Shown here one piece after another: positions 908-59,677 of a stretch of DNA of 64,000 bases. The translations under genes and the position numbers were made by a program. The stretch is taken from the NCBI GenBank assembly GCA_017503735.1, contig JAFVSN010000006.1:62001-126000 (forward strand), given 5' to 3'. The notes below the pieces were generated by a model. That model did no database searches. It had not been told where the DNA came from and saw only the letters and a program-made list of their open reading frames with translations. Numbering within the stretch: position 1 is the stretch's first letter; every line of letters starts with the position of its first letter. The stretch comes from Lachnospiraceae bacterium. Its GTDB lineage: Bacteria; Bacillota; Clostridia; Lachnospirales; Lachnospiraceae.

Positions 908-2224
908 ATGCCATCCGATTGTTATAAAATAACTCCCCCGCGCTGTCCGGACTCTTTTTCTGTCACGGTACCGGGTTCCAAAAGTATTACCAACCGTGCG
1001 CTGCTCCTTGCCGCCTTATCCGACGGAGCCTGCACCTTAAAAAATGCTTTATTTTCTTCCGATTCCAAAGCTCTCATTACCGCCTTACAGGAACTGGGTA
1101 TCTCCTGTACTGCCGATGAAACCTTAAAAGAAATCAACATTGTCGGTTGTAATGGCAGTCTGCCGAATCAGTCCGCAACCGTCAATGCCATGAGTGCCGG
1201 TACCGCAGCACGCTTTTTAACCGCACTTCTTGCCTTCAGCGACGGAATCTATACATTAGATGCTTCCGAACAAATGAAAAAAAGGCCCATGGCTCCCTTA
1301 ATCGATGCGTTACGTTCCCTCGGCATTTCCATCACGCCTCTCGGAGAAGAAGGACACCTTCCGTTGCGCATCGAAGGCGGACAAAAAAAGCTTACTACCA
1401 CTCCCGCACTCTCGGTTTCCATTGACCAGAGCAGCCAGTTTTTAAGCGCACTTATGATGACGGGGGTTTTGCTTCCAAAGGGACTTACGGTTACGCCTAC
1501 CGGTTCCCGTACTGCCATGTCCTATGTGCACATTACCGAACGCATGATGAAAGAATTCGGTGTCTCACCTATGCTTACTTCACAGGAAAACAAGGGTACA
1601 ACCTATCGGATTCCGGGCGATGTTTCCTATCACAGCCGGAACTATTACATCGAACCGGACCTTTCCGGTGCATGTTACTTTTATGCCGCCGCTGTTTTGC
1701 TAGGCATTTCTGTAACCGTAACCGGCGTTCATAAAGATTCCATGCAGGGCGACTTACGTTTTATACTTGCATTGGAACAATTCGGATGTACCGTTACCGA
1801 TACCCCGGAGGGCATTTGTGTAACCGGTCCGGAAACCAAGCACTATCCGGGACTTGACATTACCATGAGTGATTTTTCCGACCAAACCATGACCATGGCA
1901 GTTTTAGCTTTGTTTGCGGACTCCCCGACCCACATCCGTGGCGTTGGCCACATTCGCTCTCAGGAATGTGATCGTATGACTGCAACCATCAACGAAATCA
2001 AACGATTGGGCGGCGATGCAAAAGAAGATGAGGACGGCACCGGCCTGATTATTACACCGGCTACACTTCACGGTGCACGAATCGAGACCTATGACGACCA
2101 TCGTATGGCAATGGCCTTTTCCCTGGTCGGCCTGCGGGTAGAAGGCGTCGAAATCGACAATCCTTCCTGCTGCAAAAAAACCTTTGAAAACTATTTTGAA
2201 CTATTTGGTCGGTATCTGGCATAA
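908..2224 (+). CDS. aroA: 3-phosphoshikimate 1-carboxyvinyltransferase (EPSP synthase)
   Basis: This 438-residue enzyme joins phosphoenolpyruvate to shikimate-3-phosphate in the shikimate pathway to chorismate. The N-terminal PGSKSITNRALLLAAL block binds shikimate-3-phosphate, NAMSAGTAARFLTALLA holds the PEP-loop region, and FSDQTMTMAV, RSQECDRM and TYDDHRMAMAF are the conserved C-terminal catalytic blocks. Length fits the family. It has a good AAAGGAG site before ATG 908 and its own promoter. It stands alone: no other aro genes flank it, and it is followed by a terminator shared with the convergent azlCD pair. Confidence 0.95.
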   Translation: MPSDCYKITPPRCPDSFSVTVPGSKSITNRALLLAALSDGACTLKNALFSSDSKALITALQELGISCTADETLKEINIVGCNGSLPNQSATVNAMSAGTAARFLTALLAFSDGIYTLDASEQMKKRPMAPLIDALRSLGISITPLGEEGHLPLRIEGGQKKLTTTPALSVSIDQSSQFLSALMMTGVLLPKGLTVTPTGSRTAMSYVHITERMMKEFGVSPMLTSQENKGTTYRIPGDVSYHSRNYYIEPDLSGACYFYAAAVLLGISVTVTGVHKDSMQGDLRFILALEQFGCTVTDTPEGICVTGPETKHYPGLDITMSDFSDQTMTMAVLALFADSPTHIRGVGHIRSQECDRMTATINEIKRLGGDAKEDEDGTGLIITPATLHGARIETYDDHRMAMAFSLVGLRVEGVEIDNPSCCKKTFENYFELFGRYLA

Positions 2225-26050: not shown

Positions 26051-26500
26051 CACGAGGTCCGGGGGGCCTCGGTTCTGGGACGGACCGAAGTGAAACGAAG
26101 ACGACTTCGATCCTCGGGGCGTGAGTGCTTGCGCTCTATCTACTTGACTAGAATAATGCGCAAGACGTCCCACAACGTCCAGTGGACGTTGGTACTGGGA
26201 CAGACCGAGCCGGCAGGCGAGAAGCGCACGAGGTCCAGTGGACCTCGGTAATGCGCCGACCGGAGCGAAGCGGAGACCGAACCCATGCATGTTTGCATGG
26301 GTTCCGTGAGCGCTTGCGCAATATTAATAAGACTAGAAAACCAGCGCAAGACGGGGCGCACGAGGTCCGGTGGACCTCGGTAATGCGCCGACCGGAGCGA
26401 AGCGGAGACTTCGAACCAATACGGAACGTATTGGTTCGTAAGCGCTTGCGCTTACAAAAAAATAAGAACCGGTCGTTTGACCGATTCTTATTTTTTACAA
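26051..26500. repeat. Array of structured hairpin modules beside tRNA-Gly
   Basis: No gene is present in this 450-bp stretch. Four copies of a nested hairpin (module A) lie at 26051-26081, 26167-26201, 26224-26256 and 26356-26388. Each is followed by a conserved 20-21 bp block (26082-26102, 26202-26223, 26257-26277, 26389-26409; consensus near GACCGGAGCGAAGCGGAGAC). Three then carry a locus-specific segment, a clear palindrome in two of them (26278-26306, 26412-26438), and a GTGAGCGCTTGCGC ... GCGCAAGAC block. The last such block ends in the tRNA-Gly 3' sequence. Copies 3 and 4 are near-identical over 54 bases. Confidence 0.8.
26461..26492 (-). terminator. Terminator of tRNA-Gly
   Basis: A 14-bp stem (26461-26474 with 26479-26492, one G-U-type mismatch) and a 4-nt loop are flanked by A/T tracts on both sides. 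It begins 8 bases after the tRNA 3' end on the minus strand. Confidence 0.85.
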
Positions 26501-26571
26501 GCGCAAGACGGGATTCGAACCCGCGACCCTCGCCTTGGCAAGGCGATACTCCACCACTGAGCCACTTGCGC
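26500..26571 (-). tRNA. tRNA-Gly (GCC)
   Basis: The minus strand folds into a complete cloverleaf. The acceptor is GCGCAAG with CTTGCGC, and the D arm is GCTC..GAGT around AGTGGTGGA. The anticodon arm TCGCC TTGCCAA GGCGA has anticodon GCC at 26539-26537, and the T arm is CGCGGGTTCGAATCCCG. The discriminator base is U and CCA is not encoded. It has its own promoter and terminator. Confidence 0.97.
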
Positions 26572-35598: not shown

Positions 35599-36219
35599 AT
35601 GGGACTTATACTGGGCCTTGGCATTCCGTTACTCATCGGCGGTATCGGACTGATTTTATTGATTTGTACCGTTTTATTTTTTTACAGAAAAGCAAAAAAT
35701 ACGATGCAGGATTTCTTCGGCACGGACGACTTAAAACAATTGATAGAAACCCGGAACGAAGAAGTTGCCAACACTCCGAAATCCGTTTCCGGTATGACTG
35801 CGGTTTATGCCCCTGCCATTCAGGCCGATTTCCCGGAGCTCAATCTTGTGGAATTAAAAGGAATTGCCGAACAACATCTAAAAAATCATCTTTCCGAGAG
35901 AAAGGAACTGGCCGGTATCCTGATCCACAGAACCGAAATCAAAGATTATACGAAACGATCCGGCACCTGTGTCATTGTGTTTCAATCCGGTGTACAGTAC
36001 CTGACCGGAACCCAAAAAGTACAAACCCGTTACAACACCCATATGATGTATGTACAGGATGCTGCCGAATACGGCTATGCCAACGGTTACAGCACCGAAT
36101 GTCCGCACTGTGGCGCAGCCATTTCGGACTTAGGCCGGAAATTCTGCGACTACTGCGGTTCCGAGGTTGTCCCGATTAACATCCATGTTTGGGAACTGCA
36201 CAAAATAGAAGAAGCATAA
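35599..36219 (+). CDS. Membrane-anchored zinc-ribbon protein
   Basis: The 206-residue product has one N-terminal membrane segment (residues 3-31). A mid domain of about 110 residues (SVSGMTAVYAPAIQADFPELNLVELKGIAEQHLKNHL; VQTRYNTHMMYVQD) recalls the Tim44/ribosomal-L45-like fold. The C-terminal zinc ribbon is CPHCGAAISDLGRKFCDYCG. It begins after GGAGG at good spacing. It stands alone and converges with the SGNH hydrolase genes. Function unknown; the fold suggestion is tentative. Confidence 0.6.
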   Translation: MGLILGLGIPLLIGGIGLILLICTVLFFYRKAKNTMQDFFGTDDLKQLIETRNEEVANTPKSVSGMTAVYAPAIQADFPELNLVELKGIAEQHLKNHLSERKELAGILIHRTEIKDYTKRSGTCVIVFQSGVQYLTGTQKVQTRYNTHMMYVQDAAEYGYANGYSTECPHCGAAISDLGRKFCDYCGSEVVPINIHVWELHKIEEA

Positions 36220-36220
36220 A

Positions 36221-36261
36221 AAGAGCGGGTCTGCGTAATGTGAATGCGCAGACCCGCTCTT
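36221..36261. terminator. Terminator hairpin at the 36-kb convergent junction
   Basis: A perfect 15-bp stem (36221-36235 with 36247-36261) with an 11-nt loop lies 1 base after the zinc-ribbon stop codon. The T run is on the minus-strand side (TTTTTATG), so it fits best as a terminator for leftward transcripts from the SGNH genes and may work both ways. Confidence 0.75.
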
Positions 36262-36280
36262 GCGATTTGAGACTCTCCAA

Positions 36281-36464
36281 AAAATAGTTGAGGATTCTGT
36301 TGTTTATTTTTTAAGCGCAACGCTCCGTCAAACTTCCTCTAAGAACGACTAGGACGCTCGGGAGCGACCTCGCGCCCAGTCTTTTCTAAGAGGTGATTTC
36401 GACTGCGCTAAAAGCGCGCCCCTTCGGGAAATCAAAAATAAACAACAGAATCCTCAACTATTTT
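36281..36464. repeat. 31-bp perfect inverted repeat around the 116-bp element
   Basis: The arms 36281-36311 and 36434-36464 are perfect reverse complements over 31 bases and enclose 122 bases. Outside them, 36256-36267 pairs with 36482-36493 and 36239-36252 with 36511-36524, giving three nested shells. The arm sequence is not seen elsewhere in the window. Confidence 0.95.
36316..36431 (-). repeat. 116-bp structured element, copy 1
   Basis: Read on the minus strand this copy aligns without gaps to 57400-57515 with about 9 differences in 116 bases. It has internal hairpin potential (CGCTCCCGAGCG; GCGCTTTTAGCGC; CCTCTTAG with CTTAGAGG) and no open reading frame. It occupies the centre of the nested inverted repeats between two convergent genes. 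Confidence 0.9.
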
Positions 36465-36547
36465 ATGCTACAGTGTTATATAATCGCAAGAGCCCGCCAC
36501 GCCCGGAGCCTCTGCGCATTCACATCTTATGCATCACACCCGCTATC

Positions 36548-37879
36548 TTACTTCGTATAACCAAAAGCATAGATGGTAAACGTTTTATCTTCCTGGCCTT
36601 CCGCCATACGGATTTCCACGGTATGTTCCGCAGCTTCCTTCTCGTCAACAAGAAGTACAACGTTAGAGCTTCCCCAGCCGCCGGCACCGTTTACGGTCAT
36701 TACCTTCTCACCGTCCACATAAACATCTGCGCTTCCGCACTCACCGCCGCCTTGCTTACAGTTCAGCAACAGATTCTTACAAGTCAATGTCATCCGAAAC
36801 GGCTCATTTCCTGCAGAGGCATCATACTTCCAGTTGTCCGGGAAAGAGTGTCCGCCTTTCACCTGGAATCCCTGTCCGTTGGAGTCCGTCAAAGAAAAAG
36901 CGCCCGGAACAATGGTCACATCCGTAGTTTTTGCCGTAATCATTTCCATACCGGAGAAGTCTCTTCCCTTTACGGCGGTTTCCGGAATCGCATTCATCTC
37001 TTCCGGCTCTTCCCCATCCACCTGACGAAGAAGTTCCATAATAAAATCACACATTACGGTATGTCCGTAGTTATTCGGATGATACTCATCCGCGAAAAAT
37101 TTATTCTTTGCCATATACCGCTTCGTAATTGCCGGAGAAATACCATCCTTTACGCAAACCATCGGAATATCATAGTGTTTTGCAATCGGAATATGCTCTC
37201 CCTGAACGTTCCACATATCGTTTCTTACAGCAAAAATCATGATTACCGCAGCATCATTGTCCTGAGAAAGCACATCATACACCATGCTCTCGTAGCCACG
37301 GCCCCTGGTCACTTCGCCGTAGTCGTTTACCTCATACTCAATTAAAAACAAATCCGGCTCCGCTCCCAATGCATCCACAACATCCCGTTGAAAACGAATG
37401 ACACCGAGAGACGACGGGGTACCGCTGAGTCCCGCATTTACATAATTGATGTTCTCGCCGCCGTTGACACCATAGGTCTTACCAAAGGCCTCCGCAAACA
37501 GATATGCATATCCTTTGCTCATAGGATACGCATTACCGCCTTCGGTAATGGAACCGCCCAAGGTAGCAATGTTTACGGTTTCACCGTTTCTTGCCTTCTC
37601 AAGCACCTTCTTTAACCGCGCATTGTTGCCGGTAGACATTACGGAATTCTCCAGCATCTGCTGATACCAGTCGATTTCAGGCGTCGGAGTTACCGTCGGC
37701 TTCGGCGTCGCGGTCGGCTCCGGAGTTGCCGTAGGTTCCGGCGTCGGTTCCGGTGTCGCAATCGGCTCTGCCGTCACAGCCGGTGTTGTATTTTCCGGTT
37801 CAACCGGTGTTTCTTTGTTACATGCAGCAAAAACAATCGTTGCCGCGCACGCAAGTAATACCACTATTTTTTTCTTCAT
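36548..37879 (-). CDS. Secreted lipoprotein SGNH/GDSL-type hydrolase
   Basis: The 443-residue product has a signal with lipobox (VVLLACAATIVFAAC, cysteine near residue 18) and a TPEPT linker to about residue 65. An SGNH esterase domain follows: block I ATLGGSITEGGNA with nucleophile serine, VNAGLSGTPSS with the glycine block, VNDYG with the asparagine, and DEYHPNNYGH with the catalytic Asp-His. A C-terminal beta domain of about 130 residues (GNEPFRMTLTCKNLLLNC, ADVYVDGEKVMTVNG) resembles the non-catalytic jelly-roll of carbohydrate deacetylases. It probably deacetylates polysaccharide. AAAGGATT precedes ATG 37879. The next gene upstream is a paralogue. Confidence 0.8.
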   Translation of the reverse strand: MKKKIVVLLACAATIVFAACNKETPVEPENTTPAVTAEPIATPEPTPEPTATPEPTATPKPTVTPTPEIDWYQQMLENSVMSTGNNARLKKVLEKARNGETVNIATLGGSITEGGNAYPMSKGYAYLFAEAFGKTYGVNGGENINYVNAGLSGTPSSLGVIRFQRDVVDALGAEPDLFLIEYEVNDYGEVTRGRGYESMVYDVLSQDNDAAVIMIFAVRNDMWNVQGEHIPIAKHYDIPMVCVKDGISPAITKRYMAKNKFFADEYHPNNYGHTVMCDFIMELLRQVDGEEPEEMNAIPETAVKGRDFSGMEMITAKTTDVTIVPGAFSLTDSNGQGFQVKGGHSFPDNWKYDASAGNEPFRMTLTCKNLLLNCKQGGGECGSADVYVDGEKVMTVNGAGGWGSSNVVLLVDEKEAAEHTVEIRMAEGQEDKTFTIYAFGYTK

Positions 37880-37933
37880 TATTTCAATCCTTTCACCAGA
37901 CAAAATCGATGACTATGCCACCGCACCGTTTTC

Positions 37934-47614: not shown

Positions 47615-47785
47615 AGAGGATAGCAGCATTGACTGGCTATCGTTGGTGATGAAGCGATTGACTGTGTCGGCAAGCAGCCGTTCGTGGAACCAGCCCTTGG
47701 GTTAAGCGACAACCTCAAACCGAATAGGTTCCTCGGAACCGAAAGAAAACGCTTTTTAGGACCTTGCACATGCGGGGTCCTCATT
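47615..47785 (+). ncRNA. Candidate structured non-coding RNA with own promoter and terminator
   Basis: About 170 bases contain several hairpins in series. GATAGC/GCTATC pairs at 47619-47641, CGGC/GCCG at 47668-47680, and GGTTC-CTCG-GAACC at 47727-47740. A terminator-like AGGACC/GGTCCT stem at 47758-47781 is followed by CATTGTTT. AAGCG (47652 and 47704) can pair with CGCTT (47750-47754) over distance. No open frame is present. The hairpin series gave me a weak impression of the raiA-motif RNA class of Clostridia, which I cannot confirm. Confidence 0.6.
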
Positions 47786-52737: not shown

Positions 52738-52935
52738 CTTACCGGCACTCGCGGCGTACTGCTGTGGAGGAGCGTTTTTGTCCGGGTATTTCGACTCGGC
52801 ATTCCTTTTCTCACCTTCTCGGAATTCTCCAATGGCTTGTCCCGGAGGTTGTGGCGTCTCCGGTAGAAAAAAGTCTGGTACATGCCTCACGGCGACGGGC
52901 TCGTACAGGAGTTTCACCTGTTTCCCCGACACAAA
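52738..52935 (-). promoter_or_regulatory. Cobalamin riboswitch
   Basis: On the minus strand the 5' part GGGGAAACAGGTGAAACTCC then GAGCCCGTCGCCGTGAG (about 52930-52885) matches the P3/P4 core GGTGAAANTCC..GCCC-CGCCACTG of the class. AAGCCATTGGAG lies at about 52840-52829. The B12 box equivalent GCCGAGTCGAAATACCCGG is at about 52800-52779. A -10 TATAAT lies at 52950-52945. It precedes the DUF4430/ECF-S pair, so cobalamin should shut off expression. I did not resolve the expression platform. Confidence 0.85.
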
Positions 52936-53008
52936 AACAAAAAGATTATATCACAATTATTACAAAAAGGGAATCGGATTTTTATATCGGTTCCGATTCC
53001 CTCTCTTT

Positions 53009-55449: not shown

Positions 55450-57174
55450 ATGAAAATGCTATGGAAACTGACCAAAGAGGCCGCCCGCTACAAGGTCCTC
55501 TATATTCTGGCGATATTATCTACACTGTTACTGACCGGTATAAATCTGACCGCTCCGAAATTGCTGTCTAAGATGACCGGTATCGTAGGAGGCGGCGTGG
55601 ATGATACTGCCCTAAAACAAATCGTATTCCTTGCCATCGGACTGTTGGTACTGTATTTGCTTCGTATTGTATTCCGTTTCTTAAATAACTATCTGGCCCA
55701 CAAAGCAGCCTGGTATCTGGTGGGGGATTTGCGTGACCGTTTATATAAAAAGCTCCAGAGTCTGGATTTAGGATTTTTCCACGACAAACAGACCGGTGAT
55801 TTAATGAGTCGCGTAGTCAACGATACGAGAGACTTTGAACTCCTTTACGCCCACATGATTCCGGATATGATAACAAATCTGGTGACCTTCGGCGGAGTCC
55901 TTACCATTCTTCTTGTAATCAACTGGAAGCTGGCTCTCATTACTTGTTTCCCGATTCCGTTAATCCTCATTTCCGGTGTGATTTTCGCAAAAAAAGTACG
56001 CCCGTTTTTTAAGGCGTCTCAGAAAAGCATGGGAGAACTGAACGCGAAGCTTCAGGACAATCTGTCCGGTCTTCACGAAATTCAGTCCTTCGGACAGGAG
56101 GAGGAGGAAGCGGCTCTGGTCAGCGAAAGCAACTTCACCCAGGTTCGTGCCATGCTCCGTGCCTTACGTGCCAGTGCCATTTTCCATCCGAGTGTGGAAT
56201 TTGTTTCTTCCATCGGTACGGTGCTTGTGGTTGCCGTAGGCGGTTATTTGGCTTATTTAGGCCAGTTATCCGTAGAGGATATTGTAGCTTTTGTTTTATA
56301 CTTATCCCTCTTCTACGCCCCGATATCAAGCCTTGCAAGCTGGCTCGAAAACCTCCAGCAGTCCCTTGCCGGTGCGGAACGTGTTACGTTAATTTTAGAT
56401 ACCCCGTCCGCTATCAAAAATAAAGAAGGTGCAAAGGATTTAGAAAACGTCTCCGGTGAAATTACGTTTCAGAACGTTTCCTTCCACTACAGTAATAAGG
56501 TGCCGGTATTAAAGAACATTTCCTTTACCTGTAAACCGGGACAGATGGTTGCCCTTGTGGGTCCCACCGGTGTAGGAAAAACCACCATTACCCAGCTTAT
56601 CTCCCGTTTCTATGATCCGGTGGATGGTTCGGTTCTGGTAGACGGGCAGGACGTCCGCGATGTCACCTTGGAGAGTCTTCGTAAAAACATTTCTCCGGTA
56701 CTGCAGGACACCTTCCTGTTCCACGGCTCCATCGCCGACAACATCGGCTACGCAAAACCGGATGCCACCCGTGAGGAAATCATCGCCGCCGCAAAGGCCG
56801 CTAACATCCACGAAGACATCCTACATATGCCGGAGGAATACGAAACCCAGGTCGGAGAACGGGGCCTGCGCCTCTCCGGCGGTCAGAAGCAGCGTGTTGC
56901 CATTGCCCGCGCCATCCTCCGCCAGTCTCCGATGATTATCTTAGACGAAGCCACCGCTTCCGTGGACGTACAGACCGAACGGCAAATCCAGGCTGCCATT
57001 AACAACATGGCAGGCAAGCGTACCATTGTTGCCATCGCCCACCGGTTATCCACCATAAAAAATGCGGACTTGATTTTAGTAATTCACGAAGGCGAAATCA
57101 AAGAACAGGGAAGTCATGAAGAACTGCTGGCTCTGGGCGGAATCTATGCGCAGATGCTAAAGGCGCAGGAGTAA
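55450..57174 (+). CDS. ABC exporter, fused permease-ATPase (MsbA/LmrA type)
   Basis: This 574-residue half-transporter has an N-terminal six-helix export domain (residues 15-310) and an ATPase domain. Walker A is VALVGPTGVGKTTI near residue 375, Q-loop SPVLQDTFLFHG, signature LSGGQKQRVAIARA, Walker B MIILDEATASVD and H-loop IAHRLST. It should work as a homodimer exporting a lipid, peptide or drug. It stands alone, has GGAAAGGAG upstream, and ends at the convergent junction containing the second 116-bp element. Confidence 0.92.
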   Translation: MKMLWKLTKEAARYKVLYILAILSTLLLTGINLTAPKLLSKMTGIVGGGVDDTALKQIVFLAIGLLVLYLLRIVFRFLNNYLAHKAAWYLVGDLRDRLYKKLQSLDLGFFHDKQTGDLMSRVVNDTRDFELLYAHMIPDMITNLVTFGGVLTILLVINWKLALITCFPIPLILISGVIFAKKVRPFFKASQKSMGELNAKLQDNLSGLHEIQSFGQEEEEAALVSESNFTQVRAMLRALRASAIFHPSVEFVSSIGTVLVVAVGGYLAYLGQLSVEDIVAFVLYLSLFYAPISSLASWLENLQQSLAGAERVTLILDTPSAIKNKEGAKDLENVSGEITFQNVSFHYSNKVPVLKNISFTCKPGQMVALVGPTGVGKTTITQLISRFYDPVDGSVLVDGQDVRDVTLESLRKNISPVLQDTFLFHGSIADNIGYAKPDATREEIIAAAKAANIHEDILHMPEEYETQVGERGLRLSGGQKQRVAIARAILRQSPMIILDEATASVDVQTERQIQAAINNMAGKRTIVAIAHRLSTIKNADLILVIHEGEIKEQGSHEELLALGGIYAQMLKAQE

Positions 57175-57224
57175 TCACGCACACAAAGTGAGCATAGAGG
57201 CATCTTTTAGAAAATTCTCCTTTC

Positions 57225-57300
57225 TCATGGTAAATTTATGCCATCAAGAAAAAATGTTGCCATGAGGACATGGCAGAACGCAATGTTCATGGTAAATATA
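57225..57300. repeat. Short direct repeats with a central palindrome
   Basis: TCATGGTAAATTTA (57225-57238) and TCATGGTAAATATA (57287-57300) match at 13 of 14 bases. Between them TGCCATG-AGGA-CATGGCA (57258-57275) is a perfect palindrome. They lie just outside the nested repeat shells and after the ABC gene. Confidence 0.75.
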
Positions 57301-57312
57301 GCTCATAAACAC

Positions 57313-57611
57313 CGGTGTCCCTGTACAGAACCAAAAGCTCGTTTTACGGGTATTTATACATGTAAAAAGACACGAGCCCCATAGACCTTGATTTTTTGCT
57401 TTCCCGAAGGGTCGCGTCCTTAGCGCAGTCGATATCGCCTCTTAGATAAGACTGGGCGCGAGGTCGCTCCCTAGCGTCCTAGTCGTTCTTAGAGGAAGAT
57501 TGACGGAGCGTTGCGATTTGCAAATAAATCAATGTCTATGGGGCTCGTGTCGATTACTATGCTAACTACAACCGTAAAACGAGCTAAGTTATTTTACCGG
57601 CAGGGACACCG
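57313..57611. repeat. Multi-shell inverted repeat enclosing the 116-bp element
   Basis: Nested arms are 57313-57323 with 57601-57611 (11 bp), 57336-57349 with 57572-57585 (14 bp), 57369-57386 with 57534-57551 (18 bp), and 57388-57394 with 57526-57532 (7 bp). All are perfect, separated by unpaired spacers. They surround the core at 57400-57515. No gene is present between the ABC exporter stop and the oxidoreductase stop. Confidence 0.95.
57400..57515 (+). repeat. 116-bp structured element, copy 2
   Basis: Aligned gap-free to the reverse complement of 36316-36431 with about 9 differences. Differences cluster near 57412-57420 and 57434-57449; the stretch GACTGGGCGCGAGGTCGCTCC is identical in both. 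No open frame; strong internal pairing. Confidence 0.9.
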
Positions 57612-57623
57612 TCCTAAAATCAT

Positions 57624-59615
57624 TTAAATATGGTTTGCCACCTCAAAGGCATCCCAAATGGCATACATAATGTTCGCTACCTTCTTGGCATCCCCAAGGA
57701 GATAAATCTCCGGTACGTCAAACTCTACCTCATGGTATAAGGAATTCTCCTCATTATATCCCACAGAAAGAATCACACTGTCGCAAGTCAGTTCCTTCGC
57801 ACCCTCCGGGGTTTCTACAGAAAGCTTTCCACCATTGTAACCGGTTACCTTTGCACTTGTAAGAATCTCTACATTGTTGAACGGAAGCAGTGCCGCCAGC
57901 ATATCGGAGTTGGAGTGACAAAGCGGGCCGTTTACCTTCATAATCTTATCCTGTGCCTCTACAATCGTTACCTTCTTGCCTGCCTGCGCCAGCCAGAGTG
58001 CAGTCTCACAGCCAACCAAACCACCACCTACCACTACCGTGGTGTCACCGCAATCCTTCTCTTTCATCAGCACTTGTGCTGCCGTATACACCTTTTCATC
58101 ATCCCCCAAGGAGAATACCTTCGGCGTGGAGCCGGTGGCCATGATTACGGTATCGTAATCGCCTGCAAGAATATCTTTCTTGGTAATCTCGGTGTTCAGA
58201 TGTACCTCAACCTTTAAACGGTCCATTTCCTGTGCGTACCAGTTTGCCAGAGCAATATCGTCTTCTTTAAACTTCGGAGCACCGCCCGGAAGTAAGTTAC
58301 CGCCAAGACGACCGCTCTTCTCAAACAATACCGGCTGATGTCCGCGGATAGCAAGCACTCTTGCCGCTTCACATCCGGCTACACCGCCACCTACCACAAG
58401 TACCTTCTTTTTCTGTAAAATCGGCTCATAGGCCATAGCACGCTCTCTTGCCGCCTGCGGATTTACCGCACAGTTAATCAAAGAATAAGTAGCAATACGT
58501 CCCATGCACCCCTCATGACAGGAAATACACGGACGAATCTGGCAGGTTCTGCCGGAACGAAGCTTGTTACAGTAATCCGGATCCGCAAGAAGCGGTCTGC
58601 CCAAAGAAATCATATCGCACTCGCCATTTTGCAGTGCTTCCAGTGCCGTATCCGGGTCATCCATACGTCCCGCACAAATCACCGGAATATCCACAACTTC
58701 CTTTACAATCTTACAGAACGGACGGAACAAACCCTTTTCCTGATACATCGGAGGATGACTCCACCACCAGGAATCATAAGAACCGGCATCCACGTCAAGA
58801 GCATCATAACCGTACTGTGCCAGAAGCTTTGCAGCTTCGATACCTTCCTCGATATCTCTTCCTTTTTCTTCATACTCTTCTCCCGGAAGCGCACCCTTTC
58901 TCCAGTCTTTAATCATACTCTTTACGCTGTAACGAAGGGTAACCGGGAAGTCCTTACCGCAGCGGGACTTAATTTCTTCCACAATTTCCTTTGCGAAACG
59001 AAGCCGGTTCTCTAAGGATCCGCCGTATTCGTCGGTTCTTAAGTTAAACATGGAAATCGCGAACTGATCTAACAAATAACCCTCATGAACCGCATGAATC
59101 TGGATACCGTCAAAGCCGCCGCGCATTGCATTGTATGCACCGTCACCGAAGGACTTTACGATACTGCGAATCTCCTCCTTCGTAATGGAACGGCACATCT
59201 TATCAAGCCAACGATGCGGAATCTCCGACGGAGCTACCGGAGGGAACTCACCCAGGTTCGTCGGAATGGTCACACGACCGAATCCGCCGGACATCTGTAA
59301 GAAAATCTTACTGCCGTAAGCGTGTACGCGCTCGGTCATCTCTTTACTGGTTCTCGTAAAATGCACCGCATTGTGAGTGGACACCGGAATAATGGACTGA
59401 TTCTGCGGTTCCACCTGTTGGTCACAGAAGGTAACGCCGGTAATAATGAGACCGGTACCGCCCTTTGCACGTTCTACATAATAATCAATACCGCGCTGAT
59501 TCCAGCCACCCTCGGCGTCGGAAAGACCAAGCGGTCCCATCGGTGCCATGGCAAAGCGGTTCTTAATCTCCACGTTACCGATTTTCACCGGGGTAAACAG
59601 TTCTTTGTACTTCAT
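57624..59615 (-). CDS. NADH:flavin oxidoreductase / 2,4-dienoyl-CoA reductase-like enzyme
   Basis: The 663-residue protein joins an Old Yellow Enzyme TIM barrel with FMN (residues 1-360: MKYKELFTPVKIGNVEIKNRF, HAVHEGYLLDQFAISMFNLRTDEYGG) to an Fe-S linker (CISCHEGCMGR, about 345-360; later CAVNP). The C-terminal FAD/NAD(P) module has VVGGGVAGCEAARVLA and VVGGGLVGCETALWLA. The layout matches FadH, enoate reductase and bile-acid BaiCD/BaiH enzymes, which reduce activated C=C bonds with NAD(P)H. The substrate is not identifiable. It has a promoter and an AAAGGAG site before ATG 59615. Confidence 0.88.
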   Translation of the reverse strand: MKYKELFTPVKIGNVEIKNRFAMAPMGPLGLSDAEGGWNQRGIDYYVERAKGGTGLIITGVTFCDQQVEPQNQSIIPVSTHNAVHFTRTSKEMTERVHAYGSKIFLQMSGGFGRVTIPTNLGEFPPVAPSEIPHRWLDKMCRSITKEEIRSIVKSFGDGAYNAMRGGFDGIQIHAVHEGYLLDQFAISMFNLRTDEYGGSLENRLRFAKEIVEEIKSRCGKDFPVTLRYSVKSMIKDWRKGALPGEEYEEKGRDIEEGIEAAKLLAQYGYDALDVDAGSYDSWWWSHPPMYQEKGLFRPFCKIVKEVVDIPVICAGRMDDPDTALEALQNGECDMISLGRPLLADPDYCNKLRSGRTCQIRPCISCHEGCMGRIATYSLINCAVNPQAARERAMAYEPILQKKKVLVVGGGVAGCEAARVLAIRGHQPVLFEKSGRLGGNLLPGGAPKFKEDDIALANWYAQEMDRLKVEVHLNTEITKKDILAGDYDTVIMATGSTPKVFSLGDDEKVYTAAQVLMKEKDCGDTTVVVGGGLVGCETALWLAQAGKKVTIVEAQDKIMKVNGPLCHSNSDMLAALLPFNNVEILTSAKVTGYNGGKLSVETPEGAKELTCDSVILSVGYNEENSLYHEVEFDVPEIYLLGDAKKVANIMYAIWDAFEVANHI

Positions 59616-59677
59616 AAGCTTTGTCTCCTTTGTAAAAGAATACACCCTATGTATTCGACTTCTAATTGATTAGAATC

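Follow-up and report, generated by a model that had tools for sequence, protein, structure and literature searches.

Long hairpin repeats with a conserved tip and site-specific arms in Lachnospiraceae

Two hairpins between convergent genes

The DNA analyzed here, referred to as the window, is a stretch of 64,000 nt from a Lachnospiraceae bacterium (GCA_017503735.1, contig JAFVSN010000006.1, positions 62,001-126,000), and it carries two related elements, copy A and copy B, whose features are listed in Table 1. An earlier note on this DNA had placed both between convergent genes, and the positions of the flanking open reading frames (ORFs) agree with this. By Pfam, the four neighbors are a zinc-ribbon protein, a GDSL lipase-like protein, an ABC transporter, and an NADH:flavin oxidoreductase, and none of them looks like a mobilizing enzyme. 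An Rfam search of the window matched a drum RNA (RF02958) at 47644-47757 (+), a cobalamin riboswitch at 52764-52955 (-), and a tRNA at 26500-26571 (-), all away from the element, and gave no match at the element itself.

Table 1. Positions, strands, and pairing of the two window hairpins and the adjacent ORFs
Feature	Position	Strand	Pairing or basis
ORFs beside copy A	35599-36219 (+), 36548-37903 (-)		
Left outer arm, copy A	36238-36267		36238-36252 pairs with 36511-36525; 36256-36267 with 36482-36493
Left inner arm, copy A	36278-36311		Pairs with 36434-36467; 34 nt, 97% complementary
Conserved tip (type 1), copy A	36316-36431	-	Own-genome tip search, two-copy alignment, covariance model R1 match (L197)
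Right inner arm, copy A	36434-36467		Pairs with 36278-36311
Right outer arm, copy A	36482-36525		Contains the recurrent base motif, - strand reading GGCTCCGGGCGTGGCGGGCTCTTGCGATT
ORFs beside copy B	55450-57174 (+), 57624-59645 (-)		
Left outer arm, copy B	57313-57349		57336-57349 pairs with 57572-57585; from 57313 with the stretch ending at 57611
Left inner arm, copy B	57369-57397		Pairs with 57523-57551; 29 nt, 93% complementary
Conserved tip (type 1), copy B	57400-57515	+	Own-genome tip search, two-copy alignment
Right inner arm, copy B	57523-57551		Pairs with 57369-57397
Right outer arm, copy B	57572-57611		

The two 116-nt copies align without gaps and with exactly nine differences, as the note had estimated by hand. 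Its choice of these 116 bp as the unit has to be revised, since they form only the tip of a hairpin of about 220-400 nt. Likewise, its description of the flanks as unrelated holds between copies A and B but not within each copy, where one flank is for the most part the reverse complement of the other. The predicted folds of the two window hairpins have energies of -147 kcal/mol (321 nt; z, -10.3) and -146.3 kcal/mol (341 nt; z, -10.6). Six inverted repeats were found in the 64-kb window, and these two hairpins are the only ones of at least 25 nt within 500 nt; no tip-less inverted repeat of this size was present in the window. A further inverted repeat (36221-36235/36247-36261, with a loop of 11) overlaps the left outer arm of copy A and has a T-run on the minus strand. 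Short repeats like TACCATGAGAA...GCAATGGTAAAA, which are imperfect palindromes, stand beside the hairpin at 57200-57300 of the window and in the left flank of locus L019, where several follow in a row.

Gene context was determined in tip orientation for the 62 loci with sufficient flank, using ORFs called by a simple rule. This yielded 27 '+-', 24 '--', 7 '++', and 4 '-+' loci, with the right-hand gene directed at the element in 51 of the 62, and the convergent setting is thus frequent but not general. In other genera the context of 25 loci was mixed (9 '+-', 3 '--', 9 '++', 3 '-+', and one undetermined), and one locus of genome G367 (L227) has three tips between codirectional ORFs. By eye, and uncounted, the right end of the unit often adjoins A-rich sequence, namely, the T-run of the right-hand gene's terminator. 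A terminator scan restricted to loops of 3-8 gave no terminator-like match at 36150-36600 and one at 57258-57275, outside the arms, and simple scans of the two window copies detected neither a promoter nor a terminator at a common place.

Rfam searches of 20 further sources gave no match, and in six sources searched with E values up to 1 no match at the family cut-off overlapped a tip; a match to a known Rfam family, which the earlier note had named as a refutation, thus did not turn up in these searches. One family, TwoAYGGAY (RF01731, 78 bits), passes its cut-off in L208 of genome G381 at 1166-1330 (-), about 170 nt from the tip, and it is absent from the 20 sources and from the other five of the six. 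Matches to microRNA models lie over tips at scores far below the cut-offs (MIR1846 in L208, 29.9 of 77.5 bits; MIR2109 in L212, 23.3 of 100), and a long hairpin of any kind may yield them. By title and abstract opening, none of the openly licensed PMC papers among the matches listed describes such a repeat, a kind of family that is hard to find by words, and the family is apparently undescribed.

Copies, carriers, and occupied sites

The own genome of the window has 21 places with tip sequence at E values of at most 4.5e-9, 10 of them near full length with 88-100% identity and the rest diverged (71-77%) or partial. The earlier note was therefore right to reject chance, and the further copies on which its proposal depended are present in the own genome as well as in relatives. 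A tip search of 61 genomes, the own one included, revealed a match in 10, namely, nine of the 10 genomes of the genus and G035, a member of another genus with a weak partial match; within the genus, G008 had no match and G009 had one. An exact pattern retrieved 59 stretches from GTDB contigs, all from Lachnospiraceae MAGs and many from deer or water-buffalo gut by contig name. After removal of duplicates, the working set comprised 84 distinct tips, 74 of them with at least 170-200 nt on either side.

A covariance model of the tip, a check that the earlier note had proposed, was built from one alignment (A1, model R1) and run with strict filters. Because at most nine candidates were scored per genome, its copy numbers are minimum values and weak carriers may escape detection. 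It detected the tip in 24 of 397 genomes and 22 of 334 genera of the family sample, a patchy distribution, in four of 392 genomes of the order sample (all of the same family, one being the own genome), and, in the phylum sample of 398 genomes, in the own genome only. Phages and plasmids searched by blastn with the 57-kb tip gave no match, and viral contigs contained no exact match to a 23-base tip pattern; a second tip pattern matched one viral contig (L232), within a long phage ORF without a hairpin, and this match was taken as chance. In a hunt for an autonomous version, the base motif had eight matches in the own genome versus one for the control. Tips also occur close together: six lie within 45 kb on contig C6 of G367 (about 20-65 kb), and at L229, L230, and L231 pairs of tips stand about 220-360 nt apart, inverted (G035 and G398) or in tandem (G231), and whole hairpins can therefore pair mutually.

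Recent copies were found in genome G676, which belongs to another genus, where four tips are 99-100% identical and 217-252 bp including the arms are shared at 93-99% identity; one pair shares 539 bp, a longer duplication. Since these copies have their arms in common, copying involved the entire hairpin, whether through transposition or some other form of duplication. The earlier note had proposed a mobile or selected element, and its mobile half gains from these whole-unit copies, although the mobility read from this comparison is confined to one lineage. In the genus of the window, non-orthologous copies are at most weakly similar in their stems, and there is accordingly no sign of recent movement.

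From the right flanks of 16 own-genome loci and of the two window copies, 74 orthologous loci were fetched (30 of 54, 30 of 53, 9 of 9, and 5 of 5 matches; none for L003, L012, and L014). By blast, 20 of these have the tip and 54 do not. The empty sites that the note had suggested looking for do exist, as L181 and L188 have almost no intergenic DNA and no palindrome. Among the sites listed, others hold relics, i.e., a lone base motif (L183), a short tip-less hairpin (L168), a right arm (L162), or a base (L186), and a blast-negative site can hide a decayed element, apparently the case at L173. With some unoccupied sites nearly empty and others bearing relics, both gain and loss of the element are likely from this comparison. 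No target-site duplication was definable at the junctions read, where the species are too diverged. At the 36-kb site of a related genome (L117) there is a plain terminator-like hairpin, and its loop is similar to part of the outer arm.

Two kinds of enzyme were considered as drivers. No match to Y1_Tnp (PF01797) was found in the own genome (G000) or in the carriers G001, G004, G009, G090, G367, and G396, these genomes being partly incomplete, and PF01797 occurs in 11 of 22 genomes, including the tip-negative G008, G012, G014, G016, and G017. The distribution of RVT_1 does not track the element either, with no match in the carriers G004, G035, G367, and G398, again partly incomplete genomes. 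A Y1 transposase and a reverse transcriptase are thus unsupported by these searches, and a group II intron was rejected on the same four carriers and on the lack of an Rfam intron domain.

Paired arms and exchangeable tips

The arms of a copy match each other and not those of other copies. The own-arm pairing score was at least 21.5 in 73 of the 74 tips with enough flank, with a mean of 39.5, versus a mean of 11.3 and a maximum of 33.5 for arms of mismatched loci, a control in which related sites were left. The exception, L019, scored 9 and is disrupted on its left side. Among loci from other genera, 25 were scored; their own arms averaged 30.7 versus 9.7 for mismatched loci (control maximum, 34), and 22 of them scored at least 19.5, with L206, L213, and L220 lower.

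Stems and tips have different histories. Stem similarity was 5.73 for the 662 non-orthologous pairs with a tip identity above 0.9, compared with 5.43 for shuffled stems over all 2872 non-orthologous pairs and 13.06 for 54 orthologous pairs. A score of at least 12 was reached by 15 non-orthologous pairs versus one shuffled pair, and because these 15 retain some similarity, the stems look inherited but old; in the one higher pair, L108/L088, the shared part is instead extra tip sequence. Spacer-like acquisition of stems was dropped as an explanation, as stems are related at orthologous sites and shared by recent copies. Three types could be distinguished among 79 tips (38, 26, and 15 tips, respectively), and more than one type occurs in 13 of the 18 orthologous site groups; at the 57-kb site, a related genome (L124) has nearly the same arms as the window with a type 3 tip in place of type 1. 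Judged from these comparisons, exchange between copies would account for the mixed tips better than stepwise change.

Paired change was counted in the arms of 46 ortholog pairs (47 were listed and one was skipped), which are not mutually independent and give short stem alignments: 853 base pairs were unchanged, 221 were compensated, 131 had a single change, and 58 were broken in both. The compensated changes comprised 103 transitions and 118 transversions, and the single changes 42 G-T, 38 A-C, and 51 other mismatches. A less filtered count for 32 of the ortholog pairs gave 544 unchanged, 210 compensated, and 285 single, and here 0.279 of the stem pairs paired in both had changed (range by locus pair, 0-0.62). 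In the flanking genes, 2445 of 6385 fourfold-degenerate sites differed (0.383), with a transition:transversion ratio of 1169:1276. Given this similar spectrum and a change of 0.279 versus 0.383, stem pairs turn over almost as fast as neutral sites, and their spectrum is that of neutral change. Neighboring compensated changes numbered 71 versus 54.9 in shuffles, with no significance computed. In G676, where eight hairpins were found via an arm-derived pattern, each on both strands and one with two mismatches, two arm types differ at five of 23 positions, and all five differences are compensated.

Isolated arm mismatches comprised 92 G-T and 113 A-C, and those of the inner arms 26 and 27, respectively. 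With no G-T excess and no transition bias, the wobble and transition tests set back RNA-level selection on the arms. Divided by context, inner-arm mismatches were 5 G-T versus 13 A-C at '--' loci and 11 versus 7 at convergent loci, counts too small for a decision, and at '--' loci they would favor transcription of the opposite strand.

We fitted a 16-state model to the arm mismatch level, which was 11-13% for the innermost 20-32 nt and reached 20% when 44 nt were included. With selection for pairing only, the model predicted 0.036 (at 12% mismatches) and 0.050 (at 20%) changed pairs, five to eight times too low compared with the observed value, whereas arm-to-arm copying predicted 0.352 and 0.326, respectively. 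The predicted compensated:single ratio was 0.19-0.15 under selection and 1.29-0.64 under arm copying; the observed ratios were 0.74 (less filtered) and 1.69 (filtered), and within this model the less filtered value is still nearer to copying than to selection. As outlined in PMC8794818, template switching homogenizes the arms of inverted repeats and creates multi-base compensatory changes, and in hairpins it is a known process with the same outcome (PMC8604942, in outline).

The tip maintains its own fold. In an alignment of 39 distinct tips, mostly from other genera (A2, which was fitted to the model itself), all 33 modeled pairs had changed on both sides, and 95.6% of cells paired versus 28.9-46.3% with slid partners; 39 columns were invariant in 28 tips. 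On the strand that reads CCCGAAGGG first, conserved G-T pairs occupied 283 cells versus 17 for A-C (76 of 79 rows), and such one-strand G-T pairs fit a folded single strand, of DNA or RNA. Base-paired substitutions, a test put forward in the earlier note, are thus present in arms and tip, but they are not decisive for an RNA function, as template switching can yield covariation. A variant tip (L108, L088, and L022/L023) has about 80-100 extra GC-rich bases on the CCCGAAGGG side, which fold into further hairpins.

Interpretation and comparison with known systems

We judge it fairly probable that the hairpins form a nonautonomous palindromic DNA repeat family in which the tip is conserved and exchangeable and the site-specific arms are kept in step by arm copying. 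Comparison reveals multiple copies, tips that nearly always lie in hairpins, arms that evolve in pairs, recent copies with shared arms, occupied and unoccupied sites, and mixed tip types at one site. On this basis, the whole hairpin, tip and arms, would be copied around genomes and each copy would then stay at its site, where its arms would diverge from the arms at other sites yet stay alike. We infer that one arm is repeatedly copied onto the other by template switching when the hairpin forms in single-stranded DNA, the presumed active form, and that the tip, conserved in sequence and fold, passes from copy to copy by gene conversion and is recognized by a putative enzyme. More tentatively, the tip itself could be an active device, a conserved DNA structure that induces template switching by a replication or repair enzyme at the hairpin, so that the element would rewrite and repair its arms and swap its tips; it would then be a selfish, self-correcting palindrome that has spread in the family without a transposase of its own, a possibility that we put forward with considerable reserve.

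Much of the evidence on the tip could also be read as that of a structured noncoding RNA family, a 3'-end or small RNA in which the tip is the functional domain, the stem need only pair, and the copies are paralogous RNA genes or 3' untranslated region elements. The double-sided changes in every modeled tip pair, the high fraction of pairing cells, the invariant columns, the G-T pairs on one tip strand, and the position next to gene ends all agree with it. However, the tip alignment was fitted to the model, the arm mismatches show no wobble preference, transitions are no more favored among the compensated changes than at fourfold sites, the simple scans did not place a promoter or terminator at matching positions in the two window copies, and template switching can itself produce covariation (PMC8794818, in outline); we consider this reading rather unlikely. 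An intergenic position, a right-hand gene that mostly points at the element, and tips conserved across genera are what a fixed cis-acting DNA site would also show, selected and not mobile, such as a cruciform to which a nucleoid or recombination protein binds, or an insulator that separates transcription units. A site of this kind is hard to reconcile with the patchy carriers (including the absence from G008 and the single match in G009), with the lack of a tip at 54 of the 74 orthologous loci fetched, with the whole-unit copies in G676, and with the mixed context in other genera, and it seems improbable to us.

The uncoupling of tips and stems within the genus, together with the plain terminator-like hairpin of L117 at the 36-kb site, could in turn suggest that the tip alone is mobile and inserts into existing palindromes such as terminators, with the arms as the target. 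But the recent G676 copies bring their arms along, the unoccupied sites L181 and L188 have no palindrome, and the window offers no tip-less inverted repeat of at least 25 nt within 500 nt, and we regard tip-only movement as very improbable. A palindromic DNA repeat copied as a whole, with its arms kept alike by copying, is the reading that we prefer.

The family adds a repeat carried by 22 of the 334 genera sampled from a major gut lineage, and with it the survival of long DNA hairpins can be tested in nature. Compensatory changes are usually taken as strong evidence of RNA function. Arms that change as one unit near the neutral rate argue that DNA copying alone can give such changes, and pipelines that identify RNA genes by covariation could be misled by this element.

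Several known systems share part of this behavior. Prokaryotic MITEs are short, noncoding, inverted-repeat elements in multiple copies without a transposase of their own, and their ends are common to the copies and match a transposase. The hairpins resemble them as noncoding, inverted-repeat, multicopy elements. Arms are shared by the recent G676 copies, whereas each copy in the genus of the window has arms unrelated to those of the others; a target duplication was not found at the junctions read. Integron attC sites likewise have site-specific stems and a conserved fold, but their conserved boxes lie at the base, while the longest conserved part here is the tip.

REPINs are predicted to form hairpins in single-stranded DNA or mRNA (PMC3116915, in outline). 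According to PMC3733652, REPs are 20-40 bp long, mostly have an unpaired GTAG or CGTC tag, and are often found with RAYT transposases; their stems differ between subfamilies, and G-T pairs are frequent in them. The hairpins described here are likewise dispersed, extragenic, palindromic, multicopy, and nonautonomous. In contrast to REPs, their unit of about 220-400 nt (a 116-nt tip plus arms) is several times longer, the conserved part is the tip and the stems are site specific, the own genome has no Y1_Tnp match, and the arms have no G-T excess. A parallel for the arms is quasipalindrome correction, which shares with them the homogenization of arms and the compensatory multi-base changes; that process acts on any hairpin, whereas here it would be the regular evolution of a repeat family with a conserved tip.
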